From Streptomyces indicus (lineage in GTDB: Bacteria > Actinomycetota > Actinomycetes > Streptomycetales > Streptomycetaceae): a DNA stretch of 64,000 nt. The notes under the pieces are model-generated. The model ran no database searches. It was not told where the DNA came from and worked only from the letters and a program-made list of their open reading frames with translations. This document shows positions 50,363 through 59,647 of this stretch, piece by piece (position 1 is the stretch's first letter; each line of letters opens with the position of its first letter). A program made the position numbers and the translations under genes. The stretch is from positions 124,001-188,000 of the forward strand of contig NZ_FNFF01000011.1 in assembly GCF_900100315.1 (NCBI RefSeq), read 5' to 3'.

Positions 50363-50544
50363 GCGTTCCCCCAGAGCGTCCCGAGCGCGGCCTGTCCGCG
50401 CCGATTCACTTCTGGTACACCGCCCGCCACCGCCGGGTTCCCCTTTTCCGCGGGCGATTTTCCGTACGGCGGCGGGGCGGTGGCGGGACGGCGGTGCGCG
50501 GCTGGTCACCGCGGGCAGGCGCCTACCTGTTCCGCGCGGCTGCC

Positions 50545-50597
50545 CACCGACGCACGCGAGGTCATTCCACCGACGCGCGTGAGGTCATTCCACCGAG
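50545..50597. repeat. 23-bp tandem duplication at a gene 3' end
   Basis: Units at 50545-50567 and 50568-50590 (CACCGACGCRCGYGAGGTCATTC), then a partial third. The second unit includes the stop codon of the leftward membrane protein (50585-50587), so the coding end has been copied downstream. Confidence 0.85.
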
Positions 50598-51385
50598 GCC
50601 GCGACCTCCAGCGCCCGGTCCCGCAGATCGATCCCCTCGAGCCGCAGGGTCAAAGGGGTGCCGGTGTCCGTCTTCTCCCACAGGAGGGTCGGGCCGGCCG
50701 AGCGCACGGTCGTCGAGTACGGATTCCGGGCCGCGTCGAGCAGGTCGATCCGCAGCTTGTGCGGCTCGTCGAACCAGAGCCCTTCGCCGGAGCCGCGCAC
50801 CGTCACCGGCTCGTACGGGACGCGCGTGGTCTTCCAGAAGACCGGGTCGATCGTCGCCTTGAACTGGTCGAGCCGTATCACCGAACCGTCCGAGGCGCGC
50901 CAGCACAGCGAGAGCACCCGGCGGTCACCGGACACCGCGGCCGTGGGCCGCCCGCTCAACTGCCGTGGCAGCACGGCCTCGAAGCCCGCCTCGCGCTCCG
51001 CCTCCTCGACGGAAAGCCCCTGGCCGCAGCCCGGTACGGGGGAGGGCGGCGGGAGGGAGGCGGAGGGGTCGTGGCGGACCTCGACCCCGCCGAAGTCGAA
51101 CCAGTCCGCGACGGCCGCGCGCACCGGAGGGGTCAGGACCGCGACGATCAGGAGACCGGTCAGCGCCGCCGCGGTCCGCGCGCGCCGCACACGGAGCCAG
51201 CCGCGCAGCCGCTCGCGGCGGCTGGGCGGCTGGGCGACCGGGGTCGGCACCTGCTCGGCGACGATCTGTGCCAGCACCCGCTCGGCCATCGTCCGTCCGT
51301 CGACCCCGGGCAGGGTCATCCGGCCCTGGAGCAGCCGCAGCTCCTCCTCGACGCGCCTTCGCCTGGCCTCCTGGTCCTCACCCAC
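50585..51385 (-). CDS. Membrane partner (likely anti-sigma) of the ECF sigma factor
   Basis: 266 aa from GTG 51385 (GGAGG 8 nt upstream), overlapping the sigma gene stop by 8 bp. The N-terminal ~75 residues are charged and helical (RRVEEELRLLQGRMTLPGVD, RTMAERVLAQIVAEQ), then one membrane helix (RTAAALTGLLIVAVLTPPV). An extracytoplasmic ~165-residue domain follows. No classic zinc-binding HxxxCxxC anti-sigma motif is visible, so the anti-sigma role is inferred from coupling and topology. Its substrate or signal is unknown. Confidence 0.7.
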   Translation of the reverse strand: MGEDQEARRRRVEEELRLLQGRMTLPGVDGRTMAERVLAQIVAEQVPTPVAQPPSRRERLRGWLRVRRARTAAALTGLLIVAVLTPPVRAAVADWFDFGGVEVRHDPSASLPPPSPVPGCGQGLSVEEAEREAGFEAVLPRQLSGRPTAAVSGDRRVLSLCWRASDGSVIRLDQFKATIDPVFWKTTRVPYEPVTVRGSGEGLWFDEPHKLRIDLLDAARNPYSTTVRSAGPTLLWEKTDTGTPLTLRLEGIDLRDRALEVAASVE

Positions 51386-55156: not shown

Positions 55157-55160
55157 GAAG

Positions 55161-55243
55161 CCCGCCCCCGTCGCTCACACCGGCAGCCGCCCGCCCCCGT
55201 CGCTCACACCGGCAGCCGCCCGCCCCCGCTGCTCACACCGGCA
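55161..55243. repeat. 29-bp tandem repeats at the 3' end of dprE2
   Basis: Two perfect 29-bp units (55161-55189, 55190-55218) and a third diverged copy (55219-55243) that contains the dprE2 stop codon. The end of the dprE2 coding sequence has been duplicated twice downstream. Confidence 0.9.
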
Positions 55244-57398: not shown

Positions 57399-57425
57399 GG
57401 ACGCGACGCTATCGCCCGTTGAGGG

Positions 57426-57442
57426 CAGGTTTGCCAAACCTG
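57426..57442. promoter_or_regulatory. Perfect inverted repeat, candidate operator for dprE1/PAP2
   Basis: CAGGTTTG-C-CAAACCTG is an 8-bp perfect inverted repeat with a 1-nt centre, 28 bp upstream of the dprE1 ATG. It precedes TAGCGT, a possible dprE1 -10. It sits in the region shared with the divergent PAP2 gene, so a dimeric repressor could control both. Confidence 0.5.
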
Positions 57443-57623
57443 TCGGACCCCTCACCGAAACGGGTGATTGAGGGGGTGTCGCCCAACATTGCCGTAATTC
57501 TTGGCCCGTTGGCTAGAAGAGTCGTTTGCGGCATACGGCCGCTCGGGTGGATCGGCGGTCCGAAACCCACGGCGAACCCCTCGGCCGACCCCACGGCCGA
57601 ACCGACGGCAACGAAGAGGCTCC

Positions 57624-58130
57624 ATGCACGAGATGGATCACCGGCTGCTCGCAGCCCTGCGCGACACCGGACAGCACCCGCAGATCGCGGCCGCCGCCCG
57701 CGCGCTGTCCTTCTGCGGCGAGCACGGGGCGCTGTGGCTGGCCGCGGGCCTGGCCGGCGCCGCGCTCGACAAGGAGCGGCGCGGCGCCTGGCTGCGCGGC
57801 ACTGCCCTGACCGCGGGCGCACACCTGGCCAGCATGGGCGTCAAGCGCCTGGTGCGCAGGCCGCGTCCGGACGCCGAGCCGCTGGTGCGCACCGCGGGCA
57901 AGCACTCGTTCCCCAGTTCGCACGCCACCTCCGCGGCCGCCGCCGCGGTCGCCTACGGGGCGCTGCGGCCCGCGGGCGCCCGTCTCGTACCGCCGCTCGC
58001 CGCCGCCATGTGCGTCTCGCGGATGGTCGTCGGCGTGCACTACCCGAGCGACATCGCGGCCGGCGCCGCGCTCGGCGCCGCCACCGCGCGGCTCGGCAGC
58101 CGCTGGATGCTCAAGGAGGCCGCCAAGTGA
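57624..58130 (+). CDS. PAP2-family phosphatase (decaprenyl-phosphoryl-ribose-5-phosphate phosphatase-like)
   Basis: 168 aa from ATG 57624 (GAAGAGG upstream). PAP2 signatures: KRLVRRPRP, PSSH in SFPSSHATSAAAAAVAYG, and SRMVVGVHYPSD. Hydrophobic segments make it membrane-bound. In mycobacteria the Rv3807c-type phosphatase removes the 5'-phosphate from decaprenyl-phosphoryl-phosphoribose; here it sits directly before the UbiA gene and divergent from dprE1/E2. The 3' end is in a 35-bp repeat. A start at 57501 lacks support. Confidence 0.85.
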   Translation: MHEMDHRLLAALRDTGQHPQIAAAARALSFCGEHGALWLAAGLAGAALDKERRGAWLRGTALTAGAHLASMGVKRLVRRPRPDAEPLVRTAGKHSFPSSHATSAAAAAVAYGALRPAGARLVPPLAAAMCVSRMVVGVHYPSDIAAGAALGAATARLGSRWMLKEAAK

Positions 58131-58165
58131 CCGTCGCCCTGCTCCTCATGGAGGCCGCCAAGTGA
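58127..58165 (+). CDS. Coupled 12-codon mini-ORF 1
   Basis: GTG at 58127 overlaps the PAP2 stop (GTGA), has GGAGG 7 nt upstream and reads 12 codons (MTVALLLMEAAK). Its stop overlaps the next GTG. It arises from the 35-bp duplication and is probably translated by reinitiation. A product function is doubtful; it may act as a translational relay. Confidence 0.35.
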   Translation: MTVALLLMEAAK

Positions 58166-58200
58166 CCGTCGCCCTGATCCTCGCGGAGGCCGCCAAGTGA
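58162..58200 (+). CDS. Coupled 12-codon mini-ORF 2
   Basis: GTG at 58162 overlaps the stop of mini-ORF 1, reads 12 codons (MTVALILAEAAK) and its stop overlaps the UbiA GTG. It has its own GGAGG. It is the second copy of the duplicated unit. Confidence 0.35.
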   Translation: MTVALILAEAAK

Positions 58201-59129
58201 CCCTTCTCGACCGGCAGTCGCCCCCCACCTCGCCCCCGCAGCGCCCCGGCCCGATCAGCCTCCCGCTCGGCCTGCTCAAGACCGCGCGCCCGCGCCAGTG
58301 GATCAAGAACGTCCTGGTCGTCGCCGCCCCGGCCGCCGCCGGCGAGCTCTTCACGCGCGGCACCGCGGCCCAACTGGCGATCGTGTTCTGCCTGTTCACG
58401 GCCGCCGCGTCCGCCGTCTACCTGATCAACGACGCCCGTGACGCCGAGGCCGACCGCGCCCACCCCGAGAAGTGCCGCCGCCCGGTCGCCGCCGGACAGG
58501 TCCCCGTGCCGGTCGCGTACGCGGCGGGCGGGCTGCTCGCCGTCCTCGCCCCGGCCGCCGCCGCCCTGCTCTGCACGCCCATGACCTCCGCGCTGCTCAC
58601 GGCGTACGTGGGCATGCAACTCGCGTACTGCATCAGCCTCAAGCACGTCCTGGTCGTCGACCTCGTGGTCGTCACCACCGGGTTCCTGATGCGCGCGATG
58701 ATCGGCGGTGTCGCCCTCGGCATCCCGCTCTCGCGCTGGTTCCTCATCACCACCGGGTTCGGCGCGCTCTTCATGGTCTCCGCCAAGCGCTACTCGGAGG
58801 CGGTGAAGTCGGACCCCGGCAAGCTCGGCGCCACGCGCGCGCTGCTCACCGAGTACACCACCGGCTATCTGCGCTTCGTGTGGCAGCTCGCGGCCGGCGT
58901 GGCCGTCCTCGCGTACTGCCTGTGGGCCATGGAGGAGGGCGGCACCGGCCTGCTGCCCTGGCGCCAGCTCTCGATGGTCGCCTTCATCCTCGCGATCCTG
59001 CGCTACGCCGTCTTCGCCGACCGCGGCACCGCCGGCGCCCCCGAGGACGTGGTCCTGCGCGACAAGCCGCTCGCGCTCATCGCCCTGGTGTGGGTGGGGA
59101 TGTACGGGCTCGCGGTGGCCGACCTGTGA
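58197..59129 (+). CDS. UbiA-type decaprenyl-phosphate phosphoribosyltransferase
   Basis: 310 aa from GTG 58197, in a GTGA overlap with mini-ORF 2. UbiA motif 1 NDARDAEADRAHPEKCRRPV and motif 2 segment VSAKRYSEAVKSDPGKLG, with about nine hydrophobic helices (IVFCLFTAAASAVYLI, VVDLVVVTTGFLMRAMIG). Rv3806c-like enzymes transfer phosphoribose from PRPP to decaprenyl phosphate, the first step of DPA synthesis. Neighbours encode the following steps (PAP2, DprE1, DprE2). The stop overlaps the GtrA start. Confidence 0.9.
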   Translation: MTLLDRQSPPTSPPQRPGPISLPLGLLKTARPRQWIKNVLVVAAPAAAGELFTRGTAAQLAIVFCLFTAAASAVYLINDARDAEADRAHPEKCRRPVAAGQVPVPVAYAAGGLLAVLAPAAAALLCTPMTSALLTAYVGMQLAYCISLKHVLVVDLVVVTTGFLMRAMIGGVALGIPLSRWFLITTGFGALFMVSAKRYSEAVKSDPGKLGATRALLTEYTTGYLRFVWQLAAGVAVLAYCLWAMEEGGTGLLPWRQLSMVAFILAILRYAVFADRGTAGAPEDVVLRDKPLALIALVWVGMYGLAVADL

Positions 59130-59647
59130 GCACCTCGGCGCCCCCGCGGGCCCGTACGGACGGACCCGCCGAACGGCCCGGACTCCTCGCCCGCCTGCGC
59201 GCGAAGAGCTCCGGGCTCGCGGCCCGGCTGCGCGCCATGGGCCCCGAGCTGCTCGGCTTCGCCGCCGCCGGGATCTGCGCCTACGCCGCCGACCTCGGCC
59301 TGTTCATCTGGCTGCGCGGCCCGCTGGGCTGGGACCCGCTGACCGCCAAGGCCCTCTCCTTCGTGGCCGGCTGCTCGGTGGCGTACGCGGGCAACGCGCT
59401 CGGCACGTACCGCGGCCGCACCCCGGGCGTCTCCCGGATGCGGCAGTACGCGGTGTTCTTCGCGGTGAACATCGCGGGCGCCCTCGTCCAGCTCCTCTGC
59501 CTCGCGGTCTCGCACTACGGCCTCGGCTACACCTCCCCGCGCGCCGACACGATCTCCGGCGCCGGCGTGGGCATGGCGCTCGCCACGGTCCTGCGGTTCT
59601 GGGGTACTCGGAGCTTGGTGTTCCGTACGGCCGGGAAGGCGGCCTGA
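59126..59647 (+). CDS. GtrA-family membrane protein
   Basis: 173 aa from GTG 59126 (GTGA overlap with the UbiA stop). Residues about 35-165 hold four helices: LGFAAAGICAYAADLGLFIW, PLTAKALSFVAGCSVAYAGN, YAVFFAVNIAGALVQLLCLA, ISGAGVGMALATVLRFWGTR. GtrA-like proteins are linked to lipid-linked sugar transfer or flipping. In mycobacteria Rv3789 (GtrA-like) is in the DPA pathway. It is probably an operon with UbiA. Confidence 0.87.
   Translation: MSTSAPPRARTDGPAERPGLLARLRAKSSGLAARLRAMGPELLGFAAAGICAYAADLGLFIWLRGPLGWDPLTAKALSFVAGCSVAYAGNALGTYRGRTPGVSRMRQYAVFFAVNIAGALVQLLCLAVSHYGLGYTSPRADTISGAGVGMALATVLRFWGTRSLVFRTAGKAA

Follow-up and report, generated by a model that had tools for sequence, protein, structure and literature searches.

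The closest precedent for the arrangement described here is the MIRU (mycobacterial interspersed repetitive unit) array of senX3-regX3, which, like the array of Streptomyces indicus, is a tandem repeat between co-directional genes. According to passages in PMC12548453 and PMC4213456, which draw on Supply 1997, MIRU units carry short ORFs whose coupling to the following gene is at -4 nt, and their copy make-up differs between strains: parts of PMC4213456 report three 77-bp units in H37Rv, and two units of 77 bp plus one of 53 bp in CDC1551. For translational coupling in general, sections of PMC10666635 describe reporters in E. coli and Haloferax in which gaps of 20-38 nt nearly abolish coupling, scanning is rare, and no more than the final 15 nt of the gene upstream is needed for coupling; they also quote other studies in which coupling extended over longer gaps. 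Moreover, removal of the Shine-Dalgarno sequence (SD) lowered reinitiation in four of five E. coli gene pairs, as stated in part of PMC6728339. Among open-licence papers, we found no repeat-made chain of mini-ORFs besides the MIRUs.

In S. indicus, such a chain is located between the genes for a PAP2-superfamily phosphatase and the UbiA-family DPPR synthase (Table 1; coordinates refer to the window, i.e. the whole 64-kb stretch of DNA analysed). The UbiA start at position 58197 aligns with residue 1 of the S. mesophilus UbiA protein. DprE1 and DprE2 are encoded divergently upstream, with 697.9 and 392.9 bits against NCBIfam cut-offs of 500 and 250, respectively; for the PAP2 protein, no NCBIfam equivalog reached its cut-off. 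In M. tuberculosis, DPPR is made by Rv3806c and dephosphorylated by Rv3807c (parts of PMC11127046), and judging from gene position and from M. tuberculosis, PAP2 probably acts as the phosphatase of the step after UbiA.

Table 1. Positions of the genes, repeat array, Shine-Dalgarno sequences and mini-ORFs in the window
Feature	Position	Strand	Evidence or remark
PAP2-superfamily phosphatase gene; last codons hold the first SD and GTGA; stop 58128-58130	57624..58130	+	Pfam PF01569, E 5e-17; reading frame
35-bp tandem array, three copies, third incomplete	58106..58202	+	TRF and repeat comparison
Shine-Dalgarno GGAGG, copy 1	58115..58119	+	7 nt before GTG 58127
Mini-ORF 1, 12 codons; GTG start in the PAP2-stop GTGA, TGA overlaps next GTG	58127..58165	+	
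Shine-Dalgarno GGAGG, copy 2	58150..58154	+	sequence reading
Mini-ORF 2, 12 codons; TGA stop overlaps UbiA GTG	58162..58200	+	
Shine-Dalgarno GGAGG, copy 3	58185..58189	+	ancestral position relative to UbiA
UbiA-family decaprenyl-phosphate phosphoribosyltransferase (DPPR synthase)	58197..59129	+	NCBIfam NF008978, 417.7 bits, cut-off 207
GtrA-like membrane protein, 4-nt overlap with UbiA stop	59126..59647	+	Pfam PF04138, E 8e-22

An earlier note on this DNA had reported a 35-bp tandem repeat with coupled 12-codon mini-ORFs, a GGAGG and a GTGA stop-start overlap in each repeat, and two extra mini-ORFs that lead with four-base overlaps from PAP2 to UbiA. Direct reading of the sequence and TRF (period 35, 2.8 copies, 90% matches, score 159) bear out the repeat and its mini-ORFs, and both motifs are present in all three copies; of the bounds given for it, the array itself stands, whereas the left edge has to be moved from 58115 to about 58106-58110. 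The 18-mer GGAGGCCGCCAAGTGACC occurs three times at a spacing of 35 bp, beginning at 58115, 58150 and 58185, and the end of GGAGG is separated from GTG by 7 nt in each copy. Counted from 58110, 58145 and 58180, the second copy shares 94% and the third 69% of its 35 nt with the first: the 18-nt core is the same in all three, and the variation lies upstream of GGAGG or, in the last copy, after GTGACC. Each GTG is interlocked with a TGA (58127 with 58128-58130, 58162 with 58163-58165, 58197 with 58198-58200). Since the period of 35 equals 2 modulo 3, the frame opened by each GTG is closed by the TGA of the following copy; any unit that carries GTGA, lacks another in-frame stop and has a period of 2 modulo 3 gives a chain of mini-ORFs by arithmetic. 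The two mini-ORFs, MTVALLLMEAAK and MTVALILAEAAK, each overlap both neighbours by 4 nt, and the sequence differences between them alter residues (L to I, M to A). A programmed frameshift that would extend PAP2 was discarded, as direct reading revealed no slippery heptamer at CCAAGTGA.

The repeat unit is local rather than dispersed: the 17-mer GAGGCCGCCAAGTGACC has exactly three occurrences in the whole S. indicus genome, all of them in the array (with two further sites at one mismatch), and the best match of the 100-nt array elsewhere in the genome reaches only 37.4 bits. This rules out a dispersed element. When two or more NTGA-linked mini-ORFs of 4-25 codons are counted as a chain, the two strands of the window hold five chains, and 60 order-1 Markov sequences hold 4.6 on average (sd 2.2). 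Chain geometry as such is therefore not beyond chance; the tandem repeat is, and a chance chain of mini-ORFs as the full account is rejected. What is unusual at PAP2-UbiA is that the chain joins two conserved genes exactly and that an identical SD-stop-start module is present in three copies. The spacer resembles positions 58217-58233 inside UbiA (17 nt, 76%), which may have been the source of the extra bases; this match is too weak to be used.

To place the locus among its relatives, we compared PAP2-UbiA junctions across Streptomyces. The 145 loci yielded 110 distinct readable junctions, S. indicus included, which come from related species and hence are not all independent; 15 loci with one of the two proteins were left out, and the others repeated a junction or had neither protein. 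In 87 of the 110 junctions, UbiA starts 5 nt before the PAP2 stop, an overlap of 8 nt (this count includes L027, scored at +4 but with a second GTG at -5); in 21, it starts one nt before the stop (4-nt overlap), and in a single one (L019) 14 nt before it (17-nt overlap). A spacer with mini-ORFs is present in one junction of the 110, that of S. indicus. An SD-like motif precedes the UbiA start in 100 of the 110, although in 17 of these it is GGGG only. Direct coupling of PAP2 and UbiA is thus the ancestral state, since 108 of the other 109 junctions overlap by 4 or 8 nt and the remaining one by 17 nt, and the retention of a stop-start overlap in all 109 suggests that coupling matters.

Small duplications are found at this junction in other loci as well. 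Among the 103 of the 110 junctions with enough flanking sequence, a local tandem copy is present in ten; of 206 control stretches taken from inside the PAP2 and UbiA genes, one has such a copy. In eight of the nine other than S. indicus the period is a multiple of 3, and none of the nine has an intergenic mini-ORF. In-frame copies of 15 or 30 bp are found in the UbiA N-terminus at L017, L033, L079 and L085 (VTDTAVTDTAV in L017 and L033) and form an in-frame counterpart of the S. indicus duplication. The PAP2 tail and the UbiA N-terminus are little conserved, and probably for this reason the junction tolerates small duplications. In the nearest species found, S. mesophilus YC504 (L036, and also L007/L146 of G205), whose UbiA is 91% identical, PAP2 and UbiA meet in a plain 4-nt overlap (GTGACC) without mini-ORFs; its PAP2 tail carries an in-frame tandem repeat of its own. 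Shared ancestry of the two arrays was considered: in a global alignment, three units of each are in register, but the units differ in length (about 27 and 30 bp in S. mesophilus versus 35 bp in S. indicus) and look more alike within than between the species.

A second array lies at the end of dprE2 (55160-55243, minus-strand stop at 55233; 29 bp, 2.9 copies, 96%). It gives two 10-codon NTGA-linked mini-ORFs, from 55236 downwards, which run into a convergent gene, so that there is no co-directional downstream gene to couple. The dprE2 end of S. mesophilus has a different array of 19 bp (L146, 10942-11017). Both spots have thus been hit in both species, with species-specific units, and the dprE2 chain is the strongest sign from within the genome that chains of this kind are by-products. 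A further array (50544-50604; 2.7 copies of 23 bp) lies across the end of gene 50585-51385 on the minus strand and likewise yields a short NTGA ORF; no such array follows the stop of the orthologous gene in S. mesophilus.

Duplications of this kind are common at gene ends in S. indicus. We screened the window together with 100 further stretches (L147-L246), in total 1.97 Mb or about 24% of the genome, for copies of the 24 nt around each stop (at least 19 of 24 alike) located 10-100 nt downstream, after removal of gene ends less than 130 nt from the end of a stretch. Such a copy was found at 60 of 1533 gene ends (about 4%; approximate counts, as genes were called with a simple codon-usage script), compared to 8 of 3366 control positions within genes and, with shuffled downstream sequence, 1 of 7665. 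The copies are offset by 0, 1 and 2 modulo 3 in 16, 18 and 26 cases, and equal frames are not rejected (p 0.25). Coupled junctions, with a start from -20 to +10 of the stop, carry a copy in 1 of 275 cases versus 59 of 1258 other gene ends (p 1e-4), PAP2-UbiA itself being classed as co-directional with gap rather than coupled because the caller puts UbiA at 58197; the scarcity of duplications at coupled junctions fits selection against breaking the coupling. At 12 gene ends the copy creates a closed NTGA mini-ORF, and only at PAP2 does this lead into the next gene. Gene-end duplications are found at 3 of 303 ends in G093 (p 0.009 versus 60 of 1533) and, over 80 loci from other species, at 9 of 452 (p 0.06); S. 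indicus is perhaps richer in them than others, not clearly so. Away from any called gene, L212 of the same genome (10526-10610) has four near-identical 29-bp units with CCTCCGCAGGAGGTGAG, which combine self-complementary arms with an SD-like GGAGG before GTGA.

We favour, with moderate confidence, the idea that the array is a young, local tandem duplication of a coupled junction and that the mini-ORFs serve as stepping stones that keep the coupling over 66 nt. Recent local copying, probably in two steps, would have multiplied the SD-stop-start module by which PAP2 and UbiA were already coupled, and each new 35-bp copy would have brought a 12-codon ORF that overlaps either neighbour by 4 nt. 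Ribosomes that finish PAP2 could then reach UbiA by three local termination-reinitiation steps, and new ribosomes could in addition enter at each SD. The three reinitiations that the earlier note regarded as obligatory would thus be the route of a PAP2 ribosome that stays on the message, but they are not a necessity, since each GTG has its own SD and could be started de novo. We infer that the mini-ORFs are translated and deliver ribosomes to UbiA: UbiA should be uncoupled by a 66-nt gap devoid of ORFs, because much shorter gaps nearly abolish coupling in the E. coli and Haloferax reporters, even though Streptomyces may not follow the distance rules of E. coli. In a simple model with c as the chance of reinitiation per junction and i as de novo initiation per SD, UbiA synthesis would change from c*PAP2 + i to c^3*PAP2 + i(1+c+c^2). 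The coupling would be weakened but not lost, and the model predicts that UbiA depends less on PAP2 and owes more of its synthesis to local initiation. The peptides themselves would be without function, and mutation, not selection for a regulator, would have given rise to the array, which is probably neutral in origin.

The array might also be inert, with UbiA started de novo at the SD at 58185, the mini-ORFs hardly translated, and the coupling to PAP2 lost or never important. We regard this as rather unlikely. The third SD and GTG are indeed intact and identical to those of the other copies, and most gene-end tandem copies in the S. indicus genome, including the 29-bp dprE2 chain, lead nowhere. 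The region is also predicted to be weakly folded overall, which speaks for the stepping stones as well: it is less stably folded than shuffled sequences (z +2.16), and over 150 nt the predicted fold has -44.6 kcal/mol as compared to a median of -76.1 kcal/mol, with 100 of 102 other junctions being more stable. However, local access to the SDs is not high, which weighs against the stepping stones too. They are predicted to be unpaired by about 15-21%, the first two GTGAs are nearly all paired, and SD access at the UbiA start ranks 30th of 102 junctions, no better than in the others, so that predicted local access to SD and start neither helps nor excludes de novo starts. A further point against an inert array is the overlap kept in all 109 other junctions, which suggests that coupling is of importance. 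A hairpin hiding the SD (CCTC-NNN-GAGG pairing by eye) was set aside, because the region is less structured than its shuffles.

Tandem arrays are prone to copy-number change, and it is tempting to speculate that the array is a selected rheostat in which the balance of DPPR synthase and phosphatase depends on how many 35-bp units are present, with slippage changing that number from strain to strain. This would fit the excess of local copies at the junction over controls, the separate array of S. mesophilus, and the SD-GTGA core, which is unchanged in three copies while the flanks differ and could also reflect selection for function. We nevertheless consider it improbable: mini-ORFs occur in one junction of 110, eight of the other nine periods are multiples of 3 and none of these nine junctions has an intergenic mini-ORF, gene-end duplications are common in the genome with no significant preference for a frame, and the dprE2 sister array forms a like chain with no downstream gene to control. 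Regulatory tuning of the PAP2:UbiA ratio, the proposal of the earlier note, is possible but, like a peptide function or variation between strains, unsupported; if tuning were real, evolution could adjust an enzyme ratio of polyprenyl-ribose lipid synthesis simply through copy number. Still far less probable, in our view, is another function, such as an array of binding sites, active peptides, or an internal promoter as reported in senX3-regX3, where parts of PMC4213456 describe promoter activity for the MIRU-bearing intergenic region. A scan limited to the sigma-70-like type found no such promoter, nor a terminator, in 57400-58500, the 35-bp unit contains no inverted repeat, and the differences between the mini-ORFs change residues.

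If the stepping-stone reading is correct, the locus illustrates how inserted DNA at a coupled junction can be accommodated by an operon, and its natural series of three identical coupling modules makes reinitiation measurable step by step. MIRUs are said, in Supply's work of 1997, to enter DTGA sites. A tandem duplication with a period of 2 modulo 3 across any SD-GTGA might be a self-propagating module, adding mini-ORFs while keeping the coupling; such junctions could then be slippage-driven dials of subunit or enzyme ratios, here of DPPR synthase versus phosphatase, and MIRUs a mobile example of a general class whose members arise independently. This generalization is a speculative one, and we would be surprised if it held.

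The array is a real variant of a known arrangement. All three junctions have the standard GTGA geometry of 4-nt-overlap termination-reinitiation with the SD in the upstream ORF, as described in parts of PMC10666635 and PMC6728339. Overlaps in such pairs may be of 4, or 1 or 8 nt; in contrast to the usual pairs, two of the upstream ORFs are 12-codon duplicates and not genes. As in natural uORFs and engineered bicistronic designs (passages of PMC12548453), a short ORF lies directly before a gene and would bring ribosomes to it, but here two of them stand in series, inside an operon and not in a 5' leader. With the MIRUs, the array shares tandem copies between co-directional genes of one operon and a unit length of 2 modulo 3 (77 and 53 bp versus 35 bp) with an NTGA-overlapping ORF (GTGA at 58127, 58162 and 58197). 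MIRUs, however, are described as apparently mobile and interspersed, whereas the shorter S. indicus unit, which resembles a copy of the local junction, is confined to one place, with its 17-mer at a single locus and the next match at 37.4 bits. Thus, the S. indicus array would work like a MIRU array, yet by its lack of dispersal it is not a MIRU, a hint that chains of the MIRU type need no mobile element and can come about locally.
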